Virus record (IMG/VR): IMGVR_UViG_3300042988_000982
Location: 1 to 22,316 of that record
Reading direction: 5' to 3' (one strand)
DNA: 22,316 nucleotides
Source of the DNA: a virus
Made by a program: the position numbers and the translations under genes. This document shows, piece after piece, positions 3,886 to 21,099 of the stretch. Each line of letters begins with the position of its first letter. The stretch's first letter is position 1. Under the pieces are notes generated by a model. It searched no databases. It worked only from the letters and a program-made list of their open reading frames with translations, and was not told the DNA's origin.

Positions 3886-4487
3886 TGGCTGATATTAAGA
3901 TTTCGGCACTAACCGCTCTCACGGGGGCCAACAGCGCCACGGATGATGTCTATGTAGTGGTGGACACCAGCGCGGTTGAAACCAAGAAGCAGACCCGCGC
4001 GGAACTGTTTAGCAGCATCCCGGCCGCAACATTCGTGGGCGCGAATATCTGGAATGACGCGGGCGCGAATGTCGATCAGCGCATGGAAGGCGACACCGAC
4101 GCCAACCTGTTTTTCCTTGACGCATCGGTTGACAATATCGGGATAGGTACGGCAACCCCAACGTCTAAGCTCCACGTTGGCGGCTCGTTCGCCTTGCCTG
4201 TTCCGGTCACGGTCACGGCCAACTATACGGTTGCCGCGACTGATTTCTGCATCATCAACAATCGCGCCGCCTCCAACACGCTCACGCTCCCGGCCGCCGC
4301 GTCATTCCCTGGTCGGATTTTGCTTGTCGTGACCATTCAAGCGCAAACGGTTGTTTCGGCCTCGTCCAACGTGGTGCCGAGACTGGGCGGTTCGGCGGGT
4401 ACGGCCATTCTCGCGGCGACAGACGGCGCGTGGGCGTTGCTCCAATCGAATGCTACCAACTGGGTTGCAATCGCGGGTACGCCATAA
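3885..4487 (+). CDS. Fibre-like tail protein of unknown role
   Basis: This 200-residue protein opens with DIKISALTAL and DDVYVVVDTSAVETKKQTRAEL, an N-terminal pattern common in phage and prophage fibre or appendage proteins. It contains NIGIGTATPTSKLHV, a motif typical of tail-fibre shafts, and its second half (VTVTANYTVAATDFCIINN onwards) is Thr/Ala/Val-rich and β-structured. It lies between the tape measure and distal-tail-like genes, joined to both by TAATG overlaps. That is an unusual place for a fibre gene, so a tail-tip decoration or side fibre is possible. No catalytic motif is visible. Confidence 0.6.
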   Translation: MADIKISALTALTGANSATDDVYVVVDTSAVETKKQTRAELFSSIPAATFVGANIWNDAGANVDQRMEGDTDANLFFLDASVDNIGIGTATPTSKLHVGGSFALPVPVTVTANYTVAATDFCIINNRAASNTLTLPAAASFPGRILLVVTIQAQTVVSASSNVVPRLGGSAGTAILAATDGAWALLQSNATNWVAIAGTP

Positions 4488-5269
4488 TGACAGTCAACAC
4501 CGCTGGTTTCACGCTCGGGTCAAACTATGCGCTCACCAATGCGCGGATTCTCTATGACCCGCTCACGGGCACCGTCACGGGCGACGGCACGACTCCGAGC
4601 TATGCGGCCAATGACTACACGAATCAACGCTGGCAACTCGCCCCCGGCACTCAGGCATGGACCTTGCAGACGGCGGCCGATGACACGGTTGATTGCGTTT
4701 TTATCGCGGCGCACAATCTCTCGGGCAAGACGGTCACGATCTCCACGGCAGCGACGGCGGGCGGCGCGCACACAACCCGCGCCACGGTAACGCCCACCGA
4801 TAACACGGCAATATGTGCCCTGTTCAATAACGCCGGGGTTGCCTACACCATCCGCGAGGTGAAAGTCACGGTTAACGATGGCACGGACGTTGCAATCGGC
4901 ATCATCCGCGCGGGCGTGGCCTTGCAAATGCCCATCCCGCTTTACGGCGGGCATCGGCCCTACAACCTCAACCGCATCACCGAGGCCCAACAGCAATTCA
5001 GCGAAACGGGCCAGTGGCTCGGGCGCATCATCAAGCGCCAGGCGGCAACCACCGCGTATAGTTGGGAATATCTGACGGCCTCTTGGTATGATGCGAATTT
5101 CGAGCCCTTCGCGCAAACCCTGCCGCTGAATCCGTTTTGCATCGCCGGCAACCCCTCGAAAATCACCTCAGACGTTGGATTCGTTTGGACCGACAGAGAT
5201 ATTGAAGTGTCCAATATGGGGGTTAAGGACTACCGCTCGGTTAGCCTTCCGGTGACGGGTTACTACTGA
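4487..5269 (+). CDS. Putative distal tail (Dit-like) protein
   Basis: The chosen ATG overlaps the previous stop (TAATG) and gives 260 residues; an upstream alternative start at 4430 would read 57 nt into the preceding gene out of frame and is less likely. The N-terminal half is β-rich (TVNTAGFTLGSNYALTNARI). The C-terminal half carries FSETGQWLGRIIKRQ, WDYLT-like and PLNPFCIAGNPSKITSDVGFVW segments and ends in SLPVTGYY. The protein resembles tail proteins found just upstream of hub genes in alphaproteobacterial siphoviruses. Position between tape measure and hub indicates a baseplate or distal-tail ring, but the Dit fold is not proven from sequence alone. Confidence 0.55.
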   Translation: MTVNTAGFTLGSNYALTNARILYDPLTGTVTGDGTTPSYAANDYTNQRWQLAPGTQAWTLQTAADDTVDCVFIAAHNLSGKTVTISTAATAGGAHTTRATVTPTDNTAICALFNNAGVAYTIREVKVTVNDGTDVAIGIIRAGVALQMPIPLYGGHRPYNLNRITEAQQQFSETGQWLGRIIKRQAATTAYSWEYLTASWYDANFEPFAQTLPLNPFCIAGNPSKITSDVGFVWTDRDIEVSNMGVKDYRSVSLPVTGYY

Positions 5270-7068
5270 TGCCGTTTGCCGCGCGCCCCATAGAAATGGT
5301 CGAGATTATTCAGCCGCTCTGCTCCCGCACGTTCGGCACCTCGCCATGTCTTGCAACGGGTGACAAGTGCTGGAACACCACCAAGACTTGCACCTATACA
5401 TCGGCGCTCGATCTCAGCAAATCGCTTTATCTCCGGTTCGTCGGCCAGAACGTCTATGAATGGCAGGATAACAATATCAACCTACTGGCCGAGAGCGGCG
5501 ACACGCTCATTTCGGAAGCCTCCTCACCCTTCCTCATTGACTACCTATACCAACCCGCCTTGGATATTCCGGCGCTCATTGGTTACAACACCGCGCCAAC
5601 GGTGTTGAATGTTGCCTCGGGTTCGCGCGACAAGGGGCCGCTAGGGTATCGCGCGGTATGTCAAGTCAACATCAAGGATTTCCCTTGGAATGACATTGGC
5701 ACAGACCCCTATGTGAGCACCCGCGCCTATGTGCCCGAGGAGCAGGGGTCATTCTGGACAAAATGGCTGGCGCGGAATCCGTATCATGTCGGCTATACGC
5801 TCAACATCTATGAGGGCTATTTAGGCGACGCCTTAAGCGCCATGACAAAGCGCGAGTATGTGATTGAAAAAATCGACTTTGGCAAGGATGGTGTGTCCAT
5901 TACCGCCAAGGATGTGTTGCGCAAGGTCACGGATACCAACCTCACCGCGCCCTATCTTTCCCCCGGCGAACTGGCCGCCGCGATCACCGATGTTGCAACC
6001 GAGTTGACGGTGGCGGGTGCCGTGCTGGCCGACTATCCGGCGACGGGCTATCTCCGCATCAATAGCGAAATCATCCAATATTCGGAACGATACGAAACCG
6101 ATAGCAGCAACCTCTATTTCGGCGGCCTCACGCGCGCCCAAGGCGGCACCACGGCGGCGGCGCATGCCCAGAATGACCGCGCGCAACGGGTCATCTATTA
6201 CAATGATGAGCCCTTCCATGATGTGCTCTATGATCTTCTTGTGAATTGGGGCGGCATCCCCGAGGCATATATCGACTATTCCGCATGGGATGCGGAAAAG
6301 ACAACCTATCGGCCCGATTACAATTTCACGGCATTCATAGCCGACCCCACCAAGATTGACGATCTCGCGGGCGAGGTATGTCTGCAAGCCTTGGCAAATG
6401 TCTGGTGGGATGAGCGGGCGCAACAGATCGTGATGAAGGCGGTAAAGCCCGAGCCGTCGCCTTACCTATTGACCGATGATGACGCCATTGTTGCGGGCTC
6501 GTTCTCGATCCGCGAGAAGCCCGAGGAGCGGGCGTCTCAGGTCCACGTCTATTATATCCAACGCACACCGACAGCCAGCGTCACAGAGAAGGCCAACTAT
6601 TCGCGCGTTGCGGTCTACATCGACGTTGCGAAACAGGTTGACTATGGTGGGGAGCCCCAGATTCGGGAGCTATATTGTCGGTTCATTCCAAGCCAGGCCA
6701 TCGCCAACACGCTGGCGAATAGCTATCTCAGCCGCTTTTCGGATGTGCGGCGCGAGGCAACATTTGACCTTTCTGCAAAGGATGCTTTTGGCATTTGGAC
6801 GGGCTCGGTTGTCACGATCCGACATTTCCTTGATGTGGACTATACGGGCGCGGCGCGCGATGGCGAATGGCTCATCACGTCAGCCGAGGTGGCGCGCAAT
6901 GGCCTGACATACCGCTTCACGGCGGAAGACAATGAAAAGGGCGGCGTTCTCTGGACGTGGCTCGATGCGGCCGGCCTCGATGCCGAGGGCGTGGCACAAG
7001 ATTATGTCTGGCTCGATGATGACGGAAATGATTTGAGTGCAGTTCCCCAACCCTACAGGTGGCTCTAA
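5269..7068 (+). CDS. Tail hub/tip protein with N-terminal Cys cluster
   Basis: This 599-residue protein is the largest tail-tip component and probably the central hub, equivalent to gp27/J-type proteins that close the tube. Four cysteines near the N-terminus (C18, C27, C34, C41) have spacing X8-X6-X6, reminiscent of the Fe-S binding region of lambda gpL. A middle segment near residues 235-305 has the recurring tail-tip insertion pattern GLTRAQGGTTAAAHA. The later part (DDLAGEVCLQALANVWWDERAQQIV) and the C-terminal FDLSAKDAFGIWTGSVVTIRH block are typical of hub domains. The TGATG-type overlap with the preceding gene indicates coupling. Confidence 0.75.
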   Translation: MPFAARPIEMVEIIQPLCSRTFGTSPCLATGDKCWNTTKTCTYTSALDLSKSLYLRFVGQNVYEWQDNNINLLAESGDTLISEASSPFLIDYLYQPALDIPALIGYNTAPTVLNVASGSRDKGPLGYRAVCQVNIKDFPWNDIGTDPYVSTRAYVPEEQGSFWTKWLARNPYHVGYTLNIYEGYLGDALSAMTKREYVIEKIDFGKDGVSITAKDVLRKVTDTNLTAPYLSPGELAAAITDVATELTVAGAVLADYPATGYLRINSEIIQYSERYETDSSNLYFGGLTRAQGGTTAAAHAQNDRAQRVIYYNDEPFHDVLYDLLVNWGGIPEAYIDYSAWDAEKTTYRPDYNFTAFIADPTKIDDLAGEVCLQALANVWWDERAQQIVMKAVKPEPSPYLLTDDDAIVAGSFSIREKPEERASQVHVYYIQRTPTASVTEKANYSRVAVYIDVAKQVDYGGEPQIRELYCRFIPSQAIANTLANSYLSRFSDVRREATFDLSAKDAFGIWTGSVVTIRHFLDVDYTGAARDGEWLITSAEVARNGLTYRFTAEDNEKGGVLWTWLDAAGLDAEGVAQDYVWLDDDGNDLSAVPQPYRWL

Positions 7069-12659: not shown

Positions 12660-13901
12660 ATGCCCGCCAAACGATTGACCGATGCCCAATGCAAGGAAGC
12701 TCTTGCGGCGCACAAGAAGGCCAACGGGAGCCGGCGCAATGCTGCGGTGCTGCTCGGGCTCCCGGTCAACACCTTCCAGAGCCGCTTGCTTGAGGCACAC
12801 CGCCGCTTCGGCGCCCCCGAGCTAGTGGAAACGGTCAAGGATCATATCGAGGCGCGGCACGTCAAAAACCAGACGGAAATTCAGCGCCAACGCATCAAGG
12901 AGCTAGAGAAACAGGCGGCGGCGGATCGCACCATCCGCGAGGCGGTTTTCAATCTTTCCGCCCGCCCCATCGAGCCCCCAAGCTGGAACCCACGCCACTC
13001 CAAGAAGGGCCACAAGCGGGAGAGCATCATCCTTTTCCTGTCGGATATTCACATGGGGGAAAAGGTTTCTCTTGCCGAAATGAATGGGCGCAACTCCTAT
13101 AATATGAAGATAGCGGCGGCGCGTCTTGAGAGGTATTTTCAGTCAGTCGTAAAACTCGGCACCGAGCATTGGAGCGGGCCGCCCCCGGATTCGATCTATC
13201 TGGTTCTCGGCGGCGATCTTGTATCAGGCGAAATCCATGATGAATTGGCCAAGACAAATGACTTACAGGCTATCCCGGCGGTGCGGGTGTTGGCCGAGGC
13301 TATCGCGGCAGGGCTCTTGCTGCTCCGCGAATCCTTCCCGGCCATTCCGATTCATGTGATTTCGGTTCCTGGCAACCACGGCCGCAACACGAAAAAGCCC
13401 GAGGCCAAGGCATTTGCAATCAACTCTTATGACACGCTTGTTGCACTCCTCCTCGAATGGTGGGCTGATACCAAGGGCGTCAAGAATGTGACCTTCTCCG
13501 CGCCTCATTCCGGCGATGCTTTCGTCACCATCCACGGGTGGAACGTGCTGTTCACGCATGGCGATAGAATCGGATCTCGCGGCGGCTCGGGGTTTGTGGG
13601 GCCGGCAGCCACGGCGGCGCGTGGCATGCAAAAGGTTGTCCAAGACTACCTTTCCGAGGGCCGGGTGATTGACGTGATTGTGATGGGCCATTTCCACACG
13701 CCGCTAGAGTTGGAGCATGGATTCGTCGGCGCGTCCCTCGTTGGCCCGTCCGAATACTCGAAATCCGGCCGCATGAAATCGCACCCGGCGTCTCAATGGA
13801 TGCTCTCGATCCATCCCACCTATGGCGTTGCGCGGCGCTGGAAAATATCCGTGGGCGATAAATCCGAGGGCTCGATTTACGCGGGGCGCGAACAGGTTTG
13901 A
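12660..13901 (+). CDS. Metallophosphoesterase with N-terminal helix-turn-helix
   Basis: This 413-residue protein has all motifs of calcineurin-like metallophosphoesterases: SDIH (D129, H131), GGDLVSG (D186), GNHGR (N239, H240), FTHGDR (H300) and GHFH (H344, H346). These bind two metal ions. Residues about 8-45 form a Fis-type HTH (EALAAHKKANGSRRNAAVLLGLPVNTFQSRL), followed by a charged coiled-coil region (60-95). DNA binding plus phosphodiesterase suggests a nucleic-acid substrate, but the catalytic part alone does not define it. It is a late-region gene placed after lysis and abuts the mini-protein stop. Confidence 0.85.
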   Translation: MPAKRLTDAQCKEALAAHKKANGSRRNAAVLLGLPVNTFQSRLLEAHRRFGAPELVETVKDHIEARHVKNQTEIQRQRIKELEKQAAADRTIREAVFNLSARPIEPPSWNPRHSKKGHKRESIILFLSDIHMGEKVSLAEMNGRNSYNMKIAAARLERYFQSVVKLGTEHWSGPPPDSIYLVLGGDLVSGEIHDELAKTNDLQAIPAVRVLAEAIAAGLLLLRESFPAIPIHVISVPGNHGRNTKKPEAKAFAINSYDTLVALLLEWWADTKGVKNVTFSAPHSGDAFVTIHGWNVLFTHGDRIGSRGGSGFVGPAATAARGMQKVVQDYLSEGRVIDVIVMGHFHTPLELEHGFVGASLVGPSEYSKSGRMKSHPASQWMLSIHPTYGVARRWKISVGDKSEGSIYAGREQV

Positions 13902-15582: not shown

Positions 15583-16557
15583 TCATTTTCCGGTTTCACC
15601 TGTTTTCCGCTGCAAGGGTTTTGCAAGGTTTCTCGAGAGCCCCCGCATGAACTCATGCACGTCCGTCAATTCGAGGTGCCCATAGGAGGAATCGACCACG
15701 GCGAGTTTCTTCCACCCGCCCGCCTCCTTTAAAGCCTTGATACTGCCGCCCGCTTTCAGAAACCGTGCGGCAAACGCATGGCGGCCTAGTTCGTGCCCGT
15801 CTCGATAGGGTAGGCCCGCCGCCGCGCTAATGCGCCTCAAGGCCCCACCAACCCCCTGGCTGGTGGTGTAGCCCCACCCGCCGGCCGGGTATGCCCACCC
15901 CTCGGGCAAGGGCACCATGCGGGATTCGCCATTCTTGGTTTTCCCGACATGGGCATAGCCGTCTCGAATGTCTGCCGGCGTCACCCGCAGGGCCTCGCCC
16001 GTGCGGAGCCCGGTATAGGTCATCAGCGTGATAAGCGCCGCTAGGCCATCGGGGAGGTGCGGGAGCAAGGCGGCGATGTGGGCGTCATCGGCCGGCGTGA
16101 TCTGGGGCTTGGCCTCGGCCCGCCGTTCAAGCATCGGCACCGCCGCGCCGGGGAGCCCGGCACGGGCCGCAGATCGCAGGACGGCGGTCATGGGGCCATA
16201 AACTTGCCTGTTGAGCGTGGACGCCTTGGCATCGGGATAGAGCGCCCGCGCGGCCGCATCCACGGCAACCTGTCCGATCTCGGGCAATGGCGTCTCTTTG
16301 AAATGGTCGAGCAACGGGGCCATGAACCGGGCTTGCCGCCCCTTGTTGAGATACAAAATCACGGCATCGGCAAAAGTGGCGGGGTGGACTCGCCCGAGCT
16401 TGGCGCTTTCGTAGACCTCGCGCTCCCGCTTGATGCGGTAGGCTTCGGCCTGACCCCGGTCACGAGTGCCCGTGCTTTCAAATATTGTGTGCCCGGCGAC
16501 GGTGCCCGTGATGATCCAGTTGGGCGACCTCTTGGGATACCTTTTGAGCCTGAGCAT
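15583..16557 (-). CDS. int: Tyrosine recombinase / phage integrase
   Basis: ATG 16557 gives 324 residues. The C-terminal catalytic domain has the tyrosine-recombinase residues: Arg185 in YTGLRTGEAL, a Lys near 206-208 in the β-hairpin, the box HELGRHAFAARFL (His255, Arg259, His260, with one extra residue relative to the usual HxxR), Trp282 in GGWKK and the probable nucleophile Tyr292 in SSYGHLEL. The N-terminus (LKRYPKRSPNWIITGT... STGTRDRGQAEAY) matches the arm-binding region of alphaproteobacterial integrases. It catalyses insertion and excision between attP and attB. The excisionase frame overlaps its start by about 200 nt, and the gene belongs to the leftward operon. Confidence 0.9.
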   Translation of the reverse strand: MLRLKRYPKRSPNWIITGTVAGHTIFESTGTRDRGQAEAYRIKREREVYESAKLGRVHPATFADAVILYLNKGRQARFMAPLLDHFKETPLPEIGQVAVDAAARALYPDAKASTLNRQVYGPMTAVLRSAARAGLPGAAVPMLERRAEAKPQITPADDAHIAALLPHLPDGLAALITLMTYTGLRTGEALRVTPADIRDGYAHVGKTKNGESRMVPLPEGWAYPAGGWGYTTSQGVGGALRRISAAAGLPYRDGHELGRHAFAARFLKAGGSIKALKEAGGWKKLAVVDSSYGHLELTDVHEFMRGLSRNLAKPLQRKTGETGK

Positions 16558-16724
16558 GTGAGAAACCCTAAAAATGCCGTGACCTGTTCCGGCGTGAAAC
16601 CTATGCCCCGGCCCAGCTTGCAGCAACACCCGGCCTCTTTGGCCTTGGCAATGATGCGTTTGAGCGATGGCCGGCGGCCCTCGGGGAACATTTCGCGCAC
16701 CTCCTCGGGACTATAGAGCCTCAT
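16359..16724 (-). CDS. Excisionase-like DNA-binding protein (overlaps int)
   Basis: ATG 16724 has a good SD (GGAGGT). Residues 1 to about 55 form a compact winged-HTH (MRLYSPEEVREMFPEGRRPS, IIAKAKEAG, GIGFTPEQVTAFLGFL) typical of recombination directionality factors found beside integrases. From about residue 57 the frame runs out of phase inside the integrase gene and encodes a Ser/Pro/Arg-rich tail to residue 121. Related annotated proteins often show a similar tail (PTGSSRAPSPG-like), so the overlap may be real, though such tails can be an annotation artefact. It should favour excision by bending attachment-site DNA. Confidence 0.65.
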   Translation of the reverse strand: MRLYSPEEVREMFPEGRRPSLKRIIAKAKEAGCCCKLGRGIGFTPEQVTAFLGFLTCSGSKGIPRGRPTGSSRAPSPGTQYLKARALVTGVRPKPTASSGSARSTKAPSSGESTPPLLPMP

Positions 16725-16739
16725 GCTACCTCCGGTGTG

Positions 16740-16883
16740 TCATGAAGCGGCATCCATGCCGAGAAGGATGGATGCAAGTAAAAACCAACCCCACCCTTCT
16801 ATTCCATAAAATGCCAGCACGCCCGCAAGCACGGCGCAGATAATAGGCAGCACGGCGGGGAAAAATCGTGTTGCAATGCTCAT
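16740..16883 (-). CDS. 47-residue membrane protein
   Basis: This short frame starts at ATG 16883, overlapping the GapR-like stop (ATGA), and ends 15 nt before the excisionase start. The peptide has two hydrophobic stretches ([22 protein letters not shown] and [14 protein letters not shown]) joined by a short loop. Coupling on the upstream side and the hydrophobic composition support it. Function is unknown. Confidence 0.6.
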
Positions 16884-17170
16884 GCCGCCTTCACCCCGTC
16901 GCGTTCCATTGCCGCCTGTCCAAGCGGGAGATCGGCCAGCATGCCGAGCGCATCCATATAGAGCGCAAGCATGGATTCTTCCTCGGCACGCGCCGCCGCT
17001 TCCTTCTTGCGGAGCGCAATCACCTTGCGGAGAATCTTAGTGTCGAAACCGTTGGCCTTCGCCTCGGCATAGACCTCCTTGATGTCGCCCGAGATCGCGG
17101 CCTTGTCTTCTTCCAGGCGCTCGATTCTTTCCACCAGCGCCCTTAGCTGGCCGTTGGATTGCTGGCTCAT
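16880..17170 (-). CDS. gapR: GapR-like (DUF2312) DNA-binding protein
   Basis: The 96-residue protein matches GapR/DUF2312 along almost its whole length: [50 protein letters not shown], then an acidic helix ending in [17 protein letters not shown] (40-49) is a family hallmark. GapR is a small alphaproteobacterial nucleoid protein that clamps overtwisted DNA and assists chromosome replication. A phage copy could act on phage DNA replication or interfere with the host's own GapR. It is coupled by ATGA to both neighbours. Length is similar to the Caulobacter protein, with a slightly longer C-terminus. Confidence 0.88.
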
Positions 17171-17354: not shown

Positions 17355-17609
17355 TTAGTGATCCTTGCTTGGGGGGATTGAGGGGCGGGCAAACTTGGCG
17401 AGGGTATCCAAAGCCTTTTTGGCCTCGTCAGATTCGCGGCGGCATCTATCGCAGGGATAAACGCGCACTGTGTTTGAAACCGAGTGCGCCCCGGTGGGCT
17501 CCCCGCTTGCATAGTGATCGTGTTGCTCATAGCCTACGCGAAGAATTTCTTTGCAGTCCGCGCAAATCAGCTTCATCACCACCATTCGCCGCGTGCAATC
17601 TTCAATCAT
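17355..17609 (-). CDS. Small zinc-finger-like protein
   Basis: ATG 17609 has an SD-like GAGG seven bases upstream and overlaps the HNH stop, giving 84 residues. Two CxxC pairs, CADC (16, 19) and CDRC (53, 56), suggest a single zinc-binding knuckle split by a His-rich loop (EQHDHY). Longer starts upstream lie inside the HNH gene and are not supported. It may bind nucleic acid; function unknown. Confidence 0.6.
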   Translation of the reverse strand: MIEDCTRRMVVMKLICADCKEILRVGYEQHDHYASGEPTGAHSVSNTVRVYPCDRCRRESDEAKKALDTLAKFARPSIPPSKDH

Positions 17610-17991
17610 CGGATGCCTCATTGAGTTTGAAATTGCGTTTCGGGAAACCGCGCGATTGAATCGGGCGCACGGACTTAGGCCATAGGCCCGCATGCTTGAG
17701 GCGCTGGCGGCGCTCTTTCGCGCGGGAAGCATTCTCGGCAACCGTCTTTTCGCGGTGCGCCTCAACCGTCACCAGTTGCAAATTTGCTTCACGATTCGAC
17801 CCGCCATCCTTGAGCGGCACGATATGATCGGCATGGGTTGTCTCCCCGGCGCGAATCTTCCGGCCCGAGATCGCGCACCGCCCGTGCTGCTTTAGAAAGA
17901 GGCGGTCAATCACGCTTTTCGGCGGTTTGGAGTCGGGCGTTTTCCCTATCCATTCCTCCACGCGGCGGCCTGTCAAAAGGAAATCAGCCAT
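17602..17991 (-). CDS. HNH endonuclease
   Basis: The 129-residue protein carries an HNH core: GRCAISG, THADHIVPLKDGGSNREANLQLV and HREKT (His53, Asp55, His56, Asn70, His79). The usual metal-binding CxxC before the core is reduced to Cys39 with Ser at the second position. Small HNH proteins occur in phage genomes as packaging-associated nucleases or as homing-type endonucleases. Here it sits in the early operon, away from terminase, so its role is unclear. It starts 8 nt inside the upstream winged-helix gene. Confidence 0.85.
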   Translation of the reverse strand: MADFLLTGRRVEEWIGKTPDSKPPKSVIDRLFLKQHGRCAISGRKIRAGETTHADHIVPLKDGGSNREANLQLVTVEAHREKTVAENASRAKERRQRLKHAGLWPKSVRPIQSRGFPKRNFKLNEASDD

Positions 17992-18313
17992 TGCGCGGCC
18001 CCCGGAACGTCATCACCGGATGCACGAAACGATATGTTGACGCCCCTGGCCGCTGCTCTGCGATCTCTAGCCATCCCCTTTCGACAAGGGATTGCACCCG
18101 CTTAAACATCGAGCCTTCCGAGGTGAGCATGCGCAGCCCCAATTCTCGGAAATTGATTCCGAATGGCCGGGCATTGGGGCGGTGCTTCACTAGCCAATTA
18201 TAGGTCAGGGCCATTTCTGGCGTCATGCCGTAGCGTGGCCGGCCGTCTTCCGGTTGCCCGAGCGGGAAGCCCGGCACGGTGCGAATGGCGTAGAATGCTA
18301 GGTCTTGGTTCAT
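17984..18313 (-). CDS. Winged-helix DNA-binding protein, possibly replication-related
   Basis: The 109-residue protein has a winged-helix layout: helices MTPEMALTYNWLVKHR and FRELGLRMLTSEGSMFKRVQSLVERGWL, then a hairpin-like EIAEQRPGASTYRFV. MarR-like and phage replication-initiator domains look like this. It is coupled (ATGA) to the DnaA-domain-IV-like gene upstream and overlaps the HNH gene, so the trio may share a function. DNA target and role are unknown. Confidence 0.6.
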   Translation of the reverse strand: MNQDLAFYAIRTVPGFPLGQPEDGRPRYGMTPEMALTYNWLVKHRPNARPFGINFRELGLRMLTSEGSMFKRVQSLVERGWLEIAEQRPGASTYRFVHPVMTFRGPRNG

Positions 18314-18669
18314 GATTCTAGCTCCTCGATGGTGATTCCGAGACGCTTGCAGACCTCGCGGAGCTTTGGCTTGTGCTTAGCAAGGCGGCGGTTAATCTGC
18401 GAAATGCCGTGTATCACCGTGCTATGGTGCCGATTGGCCATAAACATTCCGATTTCGCAGTAGGTGCGCGGCGTGGCGTGGCGGGCGATCCAGTAGACGG
18501 CATTGCGCGCGGTGACGTTGTGGGCAACACGGCGCTGGCTCATCAAGTCCATCTTGCCGATCAAGTAGACGGCGCAAACGGTCTCGAGAATCGCCATCAG
18601 TTTCGGCGCGCGGGCAACAAATGAAACGCCCTCCATCACCTCGGGTTGTGCCTCGGGGTCAAACGTCAT
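18310..18669 (-). CDS. Free-standing DnaA domain-IV-like DNA-binding protein
   Basis: The 119-residue protein resembles the C-terminal DNA-binding domain of DnaA without the ATPase part. The series VCAVYLIGKMDLMSQRR--HNVTARNAVYWIARHATPRTYCEIGMFMANRHHSTVIHGISQI follows the DnaA helix order, with R80-H-H-S-T-V85 at the place of the DnaA signature GRDHTTV. The usual Asp is replaced by His81. About 20 N-terminal residues have no counterpart and may be a linker. Such a domain would bind DnaA boxes and could mark a phage origin or compete with the host initiator. It is coupled to neighbours by ATGA overlaps. Confidence 0.8.
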   Translation of the reverse strand: MTFDPEAQPEVMEGVSFVARAPKLMAILETVCAVYLIGKMDLMSQRRVAHNVTARNAVYWIARHATPRTYCEIGMFMANRHHSTVIHGISQINRRLAKHKPKLREVCKRLGITIEELES

Positions 18670-19112
18670 GCTGCGGCCCTCGCTTCTGGTGATTGTGCCG
18701 GGTCAACGCCTGTCTGGGCATGAATCCAATGGAAAACCCGCTCGGCAACTTGCTGAAATTCCTTTTTCAACAGCGCCCGCCGTGCCATGCTTCGCGCGGT
18801 GTAGATCGTCACCACATCGCCGCGCGCAATGGCGATGCAGTAGGCATCCTTCATGCGGAAGGCGTTTGCGACATTCGGCGCGGCGGTTTTCGAGCCGCAA
18901 GCAATCGTGATGGCGTCACAATGGCCGATAGCAATGAGCGCATGTTTGCGAAGAATCTCCGCATTCGGGAACTGCTCCCGGTGTTCGTCCCTGAGATTGG
19001 CCCAAGCATCGCGGAGCGCCGCAAAAAACCTTCTCCGCATAGGATCGGCGCTCATATAGTCGCCGCCGATCTCACAACCGCAGTCAGGGCAATGGATCGC
19101 CTTGTCAGTCAT
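18666..19112 (-). CDS. Zn-ribbon-containing phage protein, unknown function
   Basis: The 148-residue protein starts with a short Cys cluster (HCPDCGC; C8, C11, C13). A conserved-looking block follows: MRRRFFAALRDAWANL, EQFPNAEILRKHALIAIGHCD, AYCIAIARGDVVTIYTARSM, FQQVAERVFHWIHAQTGVDPAQ. This second block resembles a protein type common in alphaproteobacterial prophages, located near recombination genes, with no known activity. ATGA overlaps join it to both neighbours. Confidence 0.6.
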   Translation of the reverse strand: MTDKAIHCPDCGCEIGGDYMSADPMRRRFFAALRDAWANLRDEHREQFPNAEILRKHALIAIGHCDAITIACGSKTAAPNVANAFRMKDAYCIAIARGDVVTIYTARSMARRALLKKEFQQVAERVFHWIHAQTGVDPAQSPEARAAA

Positions 19113-19438
19113 GTGCGGCCCTCCGCTTTAGCGATGGCCTGCACCAATCGCTCAAGTGCTGGGGTAACGTGTCCCAACCAATCAGTCACCGCGTCTGGCG
19201 GCATGTCATCGGTAAGATGATCACTTTCCCAATCTTCCAATCGAGCAAGTGCAAATGACGCATCGGAATACAGTTCCGGTGCAGCGGCTATGAGGCGGGC
19301 GTTGGCAAAGGCTTCGTTTTCGCTTCGGCCCTCAACGCTAATTGAACGTTTCGGTGCTACAGTAACAAACCAACCGCTTTTAGTTTCCGTTTCAACGAAG
19401 CCTTCAAAAAACCAAGGCCCCGGCGTGTGCTTGCTCAT
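19109..19438 (-). CDS. Conserved phage protein of the MSKHTPGPW type
   Basis: The 109-residue protein opens with MSKHTPGPWFFEG and contains NARLIAAAPELY, hallmarks of a very common small phage protein. It ends in AIAKAEGRT, also typical. Its function is unknown. The start overlaps the upstream stop by ATGA, and the gene sits two places after the annealing protein in the early operon. Confidence 0.75.
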   Translation of the reverse strand: MSKHTPGPWFFEGFVETETKSGWFVTVAPKRSISVEGRSENEAFANARLIAAAPELYSDASFALARLEDWESDHLTDDMPPDAVTDWLGHVTPALERLVQAIAKAEGRT

Positions 19439-19671
19439 TGGCCAGCCTCCAACCCATGCGACACCTCACGCGACACCCGCGCAAGTGACCTCTCGGGGAG
19501 GCAGAGATAACGGACCTCACCAACAAGCGCCTCTAGCTGCTCTTGGACTGCAAGCATTTCCTGGCGGGCAATCGCGGCATGGCCGGCGCAGCCTTGCAAT
19601 GACAGGCCATCGCGCTCGATGTACTGGCCGCCCGTGAGGAGGAATAATGCAACAAGGGAATAGGTGTTCAT
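19435..19671 (-). CDS. Small exported or membrane-associated protein
   Basis: ATG 19671 overlaps the annealing-protein stop (ATGA) and gives 78 residues. The start MNTYSLVALFLLTGGQYI looks like a short hydrophobic signal/anchor. The remainder has two cysteines (LQGCAGH, RYLCLPERS) and a helix (AIARQEMLAVQEQLEALV). A longer frame starting at 19779 would lie inside the preceding gene. The function is unknown. Confidence 0.5.
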   Translation of the reverse strand: MNTYSLVALFLLTGGQYIERDGLSLQGCAGHAAIARQEMLAVQEQLEALVGEVRYLCLPERSLARVSREVSHGLEAGQ

Positions 19672-20588
19672 TGCGCCATTTCCTTCTCGATGCGTTCGAT
19701 CTCGGTCTTGAGCGCCAAGGCATCGGACTTGTTGCGCGCCCAGAACTCTTGCAGCGGAATCCGGTTGAGATTTTTCCATTGCGAAACCTCATGCGGCTTC
19801 ATGCTGCGGAATCGGGACAGTATCATGTCGGTGGCCTTGCCGAGCGGGATGCGCTCCAACCCGTCGCCCATGTCAAAGAGAATGGCATCGACGCCCCCTA
19901 TCATGGTGAGGCGCTGCTCCACGTTGGCCTGTTCCGCAATCTCGGATGCGGTCAGGTCAAGAGTCTTGGCGCGGTCCAATTCCTCATCGGCATAGATGGC
20001 GCTCAAGTCTTCCGGCCATGCCCGGCGGATGGCTTGGGCCTCGGCGCACTTGCTCAACATCACGCGCGCCATCTTGCGCCAGTTGGCCTTGTTGGGGTCC
20101 AGTTGCGAGGTGCCATCCTTGCGGAACGAGCGGCGGCCGTTCTCGCCATCAACCCATTTCCCGCCCTCAACAATGGGGGCGAACTCATCCCAATAAGCAA
20201 TGGCGCTCACCTCATGCCATGCGCCATGCGAGAACTGGTAAACAGACACCTCGGCCGATACCAACCCGAGCGGGTTGCTTGCCTCGTTGACCAAGGCCGG
20301 GTCATAGGTGAAGCGCGGCGCGCGGTCATCGGGTCGATACTCTCCCGAGCGTTTCGCAACCGAGCGGAAACCGTCGATACCAACCACAATCGACATATTG
20401 CGGCGATCCGGCTTGTCCTTTGAAAAAATGAAGCAATAGATTTGCTTCCGTAGCGGATCGAGCCCGAGCGCGGTTGCCACGCTCAAAAACACGTTAAATT
20501 CATCCGGGCTACAATCCGGGTTCATGCGCTGAATTAGTGCAAGTTGGGCGGGGCGGAAACGGTCAGTGATGGCAACAACATTATTCAT
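19668..20588 (-). CDS. recT: Single-strand annealing recombinase, Bet/RecT family
   Basis: ATG 20588 gives 306 residues and follows the upstream stop by 4 nt with an AGGA SD. The family blocks are present: FLSVATALGLDPLRKQIYCF, NMSIVVGIDGFRSVAKRSGEY (the Bet/RecT β-core), W-DEFAPIVEGGKWVD, and NWRKMARVMLSKCAEAQAIRRAWPEDLSAIYADEE. It anneals complementary single strands during phage recombination, normally with a partner 5'-3' exonuclease; none was found in this window. The C-terminal ~100 residues (LTMIGGVDAILFDMGDGLERIPLG...) are less typical and may be a partner-binding region. Gp157 lies directly upstream, a frequent pairing. Confidence 0.9.
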   Translation of the reverse strand: MNNVVAITDRFRPAQLALIQRMNPDCSPDEFNVFLSVATALGLDPLRKQIYCFIFSKDKPDRRNMSIVVGIDGFRSVAKRSGEYRPDDRAPRFTYDPALVNEASNPLGLVSAEVSVYQFSHGAWHEVSAIAYWDEFAPIVEGGKWVDGENGRRSFRKDGTSQLDPNKANWRKMARVMLSKCAEAQAIRRAWPEDLSAIYADEELDRAKTLDLTASEIAEQANVEQRLTMIGGVDAILFDMGDGLERIPLGKATDMILSRFRSMKPHEVSQWKNLNRIPLQEFWARNKSDALALKTEIERIEKEMAQ

Positions 20589-20592
20589 CGGG

Positions 20593-21099
20593 TCACGTCC
20601 TGATTTGGATGGTTTCATTTCCGTTACTCATCTGCGCGCCGGGCACCTCGCGGCCTTCCTTGAGTGCATCGGCAACCGCTTTCCGGTCCAACTTGGGATC
20701 ACTAGGCTTCCAGAACTCGGAAGGAATGCTTGCCTCCTCCAAGATCAGGACGGCGGGCGGAACCGCCTTGCGGCTAATGGTGCCCGCTGGCGTCTCGACC
20801 TTGCGAATTTCACCCGCTTGCATCGCGGCCAGGATGGCAACGCGGCGCATGTCCACGCGCTTCTTGATGCGGTCGCGGCGGGCAACGAGCTTGTCAATCA
20901 GGTCGGTGATGCCCCCGGCCAGTGCGCCGTCGCTGGCGTTCTGCTCTGCCGCCATGCGGATCAACCCCTCAAGGTCGATTTCCCCTTCTATCGTGTCGGC
21001 AATGACTTCCTCGTCATCGCCCGCGATCTCGCGCAGTTGCTCTTTCAGAACATCCGCCGCCTGAGTGGCGCGGTGCAGCGCATAGTCGATGTTATCCAT
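20593..21099 (-). CDS. Gp157-family phage protein
   Basis: The 168-residue protein follows the Siphovirus Gp157 pattern: a helical start (DYALHRATQAADVLKEQL), a DDEEVIADTIEGEIDLEGLI acidic block, a helical middle (ITDLIDKLVARRDRIKKRVDMRRVAILAAMQ) and a C-terminal β-region (VETPAGTISRKAVPPAVLI, IPSEFWKP, LKEGREVPGAQM). The family accompanies phage recombination genes and has been linked to phage-resistance phenotypes in Streptococcus. Here it directly precedes the Bet/RecT gene, so it probably serves the same process. A possible 26-residue frame overlaps its start. Confidence 0.85.
   Translation of the reverse strand: MDNIDYALHRATQAADVLKEQLREIAGDDEEVIADTIEGEIDLEGLIRMAAEQNASDGALAGGITDLIDKLVARRDRIKKRVDMRRVAILAAMQAGEIRKVETPAGTISRKAVPPAVLILEEASIPSEFWKPSDPKLDRKAVADALKEGREVPGAQMSNGNETIQIRT

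Follow-up and report, generated by a model that had tools for sequence, protein, structure and literature searches.

The question raised by this locus is what a phage gains from carrying the DNA-binding domain of DnaA (domain IV) as a protein of its own, detached from the rest of the initiator. The gene lies on a viral fragment of 22,316 nucleotides (IMG/VR record IMGVR_UViG_3300042988_000982), which covers part of the phage genome only and is hereafter called the window. The initial annotation had described a free-standing DnaA domain-IV-like protein in an early operon, coupled to a winged-helix protein, and had proposed that it could define a phage origin, recruit host factors or block host initiation. 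The genes that bear on this question, in the direction of the operon, are the following.

20593 to 21099, minus strand: Sipho_Gp157 protein, same operon (PF05565, E 2.7e-21)
19668 to 20618, minus strand: RecT single-strand annealing protein, same operon (PF03837, E 2.7e-23; 75-83% identity in sister phages)
18666 to 19112, minus strand: upstream gene of 148 aa, function unknown, at the edge of a variable slot (phrog_15346, E 3.4e-31; homologues edge the slot in L169-L172)
18310 to 18669, minus strand: free-standing DnaA domain-IV-like protein gene, 119 aa, with an HTH domain at residues 22-116 and low confidence in residues 1-20 (PF08299 and AlphaFold2 model)
17984 to 18313, minus strand: winged-helix protein, 109 aa, in ATGA overlap with the DnaA-domain gene
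17602 to 17991, minus strand: HNH endonuclease (PF01844, E 2.4e-6; 72-80% identity in sister phages), which travels with the winged-helix gene
16880 to 17170, minus strand: GapR-like DNA-binding protein of the same early operon, 1.1 kb beyond the DnaA-domain gene and not mentioned in the initial annotation (PF10073, E 9.8e-33; NF010247 above cut-off)
15583 to 16629, minus strand: tyrosine integrase, as in temperate phages (PF00589, E 2.9e-13)

The identity of the domain is well established. The protein matches the PF08299 (Bac_DnaA_C) profile over residues 26-92 with 61.9 bits against a cut-off of 31.5 (E 6.1e-17), its sequence matches in the PDB are exclusively to DnaA, and the full-length DnaA profile TIGR00362 (E 2.6e-17) is covered only at its C-terminal positions 344-433 of 437, with 63 bits against a cut-off of 343.9. 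With 55 viral relatives as input, AlphaFold2 gave a model of mean pLDDT 86 (about 80 or more for residues 21-119). Its predicted fold is that of domain IV: superposition on the DnaA-box complex of the E. coli domain (1J1V) gave Z 17.9 and an rmsd of 0.9 Å over 94 of 94 residues, and superposition on 3PVP gave Z 17.7. A fold other than that of domain IV, which the initial annotation would have counted against its claim, is thus not what the prediction yields. The R-HHSTV signature that had first drawn attention to the gene is present as N-R-H-H-S-T-V-I-H at residues 79-87. The AAA+ ATPase domain that belongs to a full DnaA initiator was found neither in the frame nor in the upstream gene, with no match to PF00308 in Pfam. 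Profile and predicted structure thus confirm 18310-18669 as the gene of a stand-alone DnaA domain IV without ATPase, as had been claimed, and such a protein would be a DNA-binding module devoid of the ATPase needed to oligomerise and melt DNA. Likewise borne out is the absence of a replicative helicase or primase from the window, for which there was no match among the 20 window proteins scanned with Pfam, nor among those scanned with PHROGs.

The face of the domain that meets DNA appears from the alignment to be largely kept. In 1J1V numbering, the equivalents of R399, R407, H434, T436 and H439 are retained as R47, R55, H82, T84 and H87, and D433, T435 and P423 are changed to H81, S83 and C71; these positions we take to contact DNA in the DnaA-box complex. 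The R399 and R407 equivalents, which lie outside the pattern used for searching, are invariant in all 56 stand-alone viral proteins of the alignment, and H434 and T436 are likewise invariant across the survey, in part as a product of that pattern, which demanded both. Three further viral proteins of the set have a histidine in place of D433, and a specificity altered with respect to the DnaA box is therefore plausible.

The gene itself is intact, with an ATG at 18669 and a TGA at 18310-18312 on the minus strand, and is joined by ATGA overlaps both to the 148-aa gene before it and to the winged-helix gene after it. Its base composition (GC 58%, GC3 75%) is like that of neighbouring genes and it is therefore not obviously a fresh import. 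These properties bear on the rival reading that the gene is a functionless, decaying remnant of a captured dnaA, which is truncated with respect to DnaA and dispensable in sister phages as a remnant might be. An uninterrupted frame with overlaps on both sides, a composition matching the operon, a complete domain with its contact residues and the many stand-alone relatives of similar size all argue against decay, and we rank this rival as very improbable. Two further frames of the window may be recorded here. One, of 114 aa as predicted (19435-19779, minus strand), runs across the end of recT in a different reading frame, and L171 and L172 encode homologues; the other, on the late strand behind the lysis genes (12660-13901, plus strand), encodes a metallophosphoesterase (phrog_284 exonuclease, E 2.4e-46).

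Comparison with the closest phages shows how firmly the gene belongs to its operon. Relatives whose RecT is 75-83% identical share the order Gp157, RecT, 148-aa gene, slot, winged helix and HNH. The slot is empty in L169 and L170, where the 148-aa gene leads directly to the winged-helix gene, and elsewhere its contents are unrelated, namely a 72-aa gene in L171 and genes of 177 and 73 aa in L172. Two further relatives, L177 and L178, have retained the winged-helix gene and the HNH gene with no DnaA-domain gene before them, and the L177 record has a DnaA-domain gene elsewhere, near GapR. Conservation in the phage lineage, as expected of an initiator that binds the phage origin, was not found, PF08299 being absent from two whole sister records, G002 of 38.9 kb and G004 of 42.2 kb. 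Since sister phages do without it, the DnaA-domain gene is an optional accessory, and not a core initiator, within the early recombination operon of a temperate phage that carries an integrase; its placement in an early operon was described correctly, although it is no fixed part of that operon. The same recT operon is also found on L168 (JAUPWC010000136.1), a contig of 3.3 kb binned as Verrucomicrobiota, which may be a mis-binned phage contig.

The proposed coupling to the winged-helix gene holds for the layout, in which the two genes overlap by ATGA, and fails as a specific association, since the winged-helix and HNH genes persist together in sisters that lack the DnaA-domain gene; the winged-helix gene belongs with the HNH gene. 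The winged-helix protein is 41-50% identical to its sister-phage counterparts and has a weak MarR_2 match below cut-off (19.4 bits). Its AlphaFold2 model adopts a winged-helix fold (pLDDT 69 overall, 78-89 in residues 31-100), with no significant match in the PDB (best E 0.013, to general winged-helix proteins only) and none among PHROGs, and a role as replisome organiser is accordingly unsupported.

Lone DnaA domain IV proteins are common in phages rather than rare. At least 142 viral relatives were recovered when IMG/VR was scanned with an alignment of five sequences; 80 of them were retrieved, and most of these are stand-alone proteins of 100-230 aa. For the window protein alone, no close homologue was found in the viral and bacterial collections. 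In GenBank some stand-alone domains are annotated as 'DnaA protein', as in Olleya phage Harreka_1 (QQV90431) and Microcystis phage Mae-JY35 (XAI96573), and others are unannotated, as in the Bradyrhizobium prophages ppBjS10J-1 and ppBeUSDA76-2, where the third or fourth gene after the domain encodes GapR (DUF2312). Judging from GapR and these Rhizobiales prophage relatives, the host of the window phage is probably an alphaproteobacterium. Full DnaA-like proteins with an AAA+ domain occur on seven viral contigs (L019, L020, L022, L024, L025, L033 and L144) and are possibly phage-encoded DnaA initiators. In a tree of the large set, the window protein is placed with viral stand-alone proteins, neighbours including DnaB, with branch support 95/87; after removal of long branches the split is without support and the AU test does not reject a grouping with alphaproteobacterial DnaA (p 0.2).

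If the protein defined a phage origin, DnaA boxes or iterons would be expected nearby. The search for clustered boxes, run within the 22 kb window, gave 20 boxes where 20.3 are expected, with neither excess nor cluster, and no iterons were found in the window, so that no such array lies near the gene. Over the stand-alone viral loci the exact box TTWTNCACA falls below expectation (53 against 77), TTATCCACA with one mismatch is in slight excess (197 against 169), and clustered 8-mers next to the gene are significant in 5 other loci only. Together with the absence of the gene from the closest sisters, this weakens the suggestion that the protein marks the phage origin. In L049, which has about ten copies of GTACACGAT just upstream of its stand-alone gene, behind a primase-polymerase, a second array (a 29-base unit in 11-12 copies) follows the gene; the two arrays (4228-4544 and 5322-5657) flank it and form a candidate origin. 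In L015 (7355-7722) and L039 (8935-9302), TCCACCGGA is repeated seven times inside the replication gene that follows GapR, in a lambda O-like layout.

A more modest part in replication is nevertheless conceivable, in which the protein would label or reinforce the phage origin and assist the loading there of a replisome organiser, or of host DnaA and DnaB, with no melting of its own. In many phages the gene sits in the replication module: in L052 and L081 DnaB lies directly ahead of it, the two genes sharing 4 bases, in L085 one further gene stands between them, and in all three an O/DnaD-type or primosomal-type protein is found just upstream. The gene after GapR is a PHROG replication or primosomal protein in six loci (L045, L030, L032, L039, L068 and L122), phages exist whose full-length DnaA, AAA+ domain included, immediately follows GapR (L022) or lies in related early operons, and the repeats upstream of the L049 gene would suit this role as well. 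Such an accessory is harder to reconcile with the sister phages that lack the gene, with the want of iterons and box clusters in the window and the box counts above, and with L015 and L039, whose iterons sit within a separate initiator gene; on balance we regard it as somewhat unlikely. DnaB was found in only 2 of the 38 whole records tested, a sample that includes six full-length-DnaA contigs and three sister phages.

The neighbourhoods contain another recurrent partner. GapR has matches in 151 phage records, whereas a 2025 report calls its phage GapR the first (PMC12185513), and a DnaA domain is also present in 16 of 80 viral GapR loci. Of the pairs formed, 17 of 18 are on one strand and, once near-identical loci are removed, 13 of 15 lie no more than 2.5 kb apart, the count including L144/L148, where DnaA is full length. 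GapR and the DnaA domain are thus linked, and a shared early position explains part of the linkage.

The only tested function found in the literature for a lone domain IV comes from gene transfer agents (GTAs), a precedent that the initial annotation did not mention. GafY (earlier HdaB), which is homologous to DnaA domain IV, switches on GTA promoters together with IHF, contacts RpoD domains 3-4 and has GafZ as partner (PMC9632790, PMC11150451). Activation of GTA promoters likewise depends on the DnaA-like N-terminal domain of GafA, and Hyphomicrobiales have a small DnaA-like gene ahead of gafA (PMC9638019). In Caulobacter, an excess of HdaB/GafY is reported to have increased the copy number of some loci, blocked division and been lethal (PMC9632790). 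These effects could be read in favour of a host-directed factor that occupies DnaA boxes or binds Hda or DnaA, thereby altering host initiation, or the transcription that DnaA controls, during infection, and a conserved DNA-binding face in a replaceable small gene of an early operon would suit host take-over. The same study, however, attributes the effects to gene transfer agent induction (PMC9632790), and the substitutions at H81, S83 and C71 may alter binding to the host box, which leaves this rival distinctly unlikely, if less so than a decaying remnant.

We therefore consider, tentatively and with rather less than even confidence, that the window protein is an ATPase-free, site-specific DNA-binding adaptor of the GafY type. 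By analogy with studied relatives and from the gene neighbourhoods, it would bind specific short sites, related to the DnaA box and probably not identical with it, and would bring a partner to the bound sites; if it acts like GafY, that partner would be RNA polymerase and the sites promoters of the phage or the host. This reading draws on the predicted fold and the DNA face, on the optional place of the gene, on the GTA precedent, on the neighbourhoods in other phages and on the lack of box clusters and iterons in the window. The protein shares with GafY/HdaB the stand-alone domain IV, and the adjacent downstream GafZ (DUF6456) partner is missing from the window, where PF20057 gave no match at E <= 10 although adjacent genes are present; nor was a sigma-like neighbour seen there. 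The window protein finds host DnaA of Rhizobiaceae with phmmer (32 bits, 7e-10), whereas the one GafY compared, from Shinella, was not reported; this chromosomal GafY has an arginine where DnaA has H434. Without a DUF6456 partner, and with a sequence apparently nearer to DnaA than to the GafY compared, the window protein is not classed as a GafY. The gene lies among early genes, which suits an activator of late genes less than a late position would, and the relatives beside DnaB and replication initiators speak against the GafY-type reading.

Elsewhere such partners do occur, and neighbourhoods in other phages point toward transcription as well as toward replication. A DUF6456 (GafZ-type) gene is found in 8 stand-alone records, downstream and on the same strand in 8 of 8 at 0.2-4.7 kb, with 5 of the 8 matches below the Pfam cut-off. 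Its frequency of 8 in 68 is not significantly higher than the 1 in 38 of GapR phages that have no DnaA domain (Fisher p 0.10; one weak match was seen among 50 GapR phages). The constant order is noteworthy, with a probability of 1.5e-5 on a simple null model in which relatedness and operon direction are disregarded. A small sigma-like protein (PHROG sigma factor) lies downstream in L078 and L067, and similar unclassified small proteins do so in L052, L081 and L085. At 18507-18875 of the L170 record (G002), from a sister phage that lacks the DnaA-domain gene, DUF6456 is matched weakly (24.6 bits, below cut-off), and thus a GafZ-like gene can occur without the DnaA-domain gene. A wider scenario, which we hold to be unlikely, is that lone DnaA domain IV proteins are widespread phage regulators and the source of the GTA activators GafY and GafA, each acting as a site-finder with a sigma-like or GafZ-like partner between replication and late genes, so that one site-recognition module would serve both phage replication and late transcription.

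In the literature searched, the function of a lone domain IV has been studied in gene transfer agents only, frequent as it is in phages. A GafY-like role would explain the origin of the GTA activators and define a class of phage transcription factor built from a replication initiator, and a role in replication would make it a phage initiator stripped of its ATPase. Because there are sister phages that carry the gene and others that lack it, comparing them can test either reading directly.

Set against known systems, the protein stands closest to DnaA domain IV itself (PF08299; 1J1V, 3PVP), with the complete fold over 94 residues at 0.9 Å and the equivalents of R399, R407, H434, T436 and H439 kept; it differs from DnaA in having no domains I-III, in the three substitutions and in an identity of about 27%. 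The full-length viral DnaA proteins of the seven contigs have the same C-terminal domain and also lie in phage early regions, but carry an AAA+ domain and in some cases domain I, unlike the 119-aa protein, with GapR adjacent in L022. The proteins of Harreka_1, Mae-JY35 and the Bradyrhizobium prophages resemble it as stand-alone domains of 146-175 aa in an early region, and differ in having 27-32% identity, other neighbours and records that state no function. With GafY/HdaB (Caulobacter CCNA_01111) and the GafA N-terminus (Rhodobacter capsulatus rcc01865) it has in common a small DnaA domain IV DNA-binding module, stand-alone in GafY and N-terminal in GafA, within a phage-derived element of alphaproteobacteria; from GafY it is set apart by the missing DUF6456 partner, by a sequence apparently nearer to DnaA and by the histidine that it retains where GafY has an arginine.
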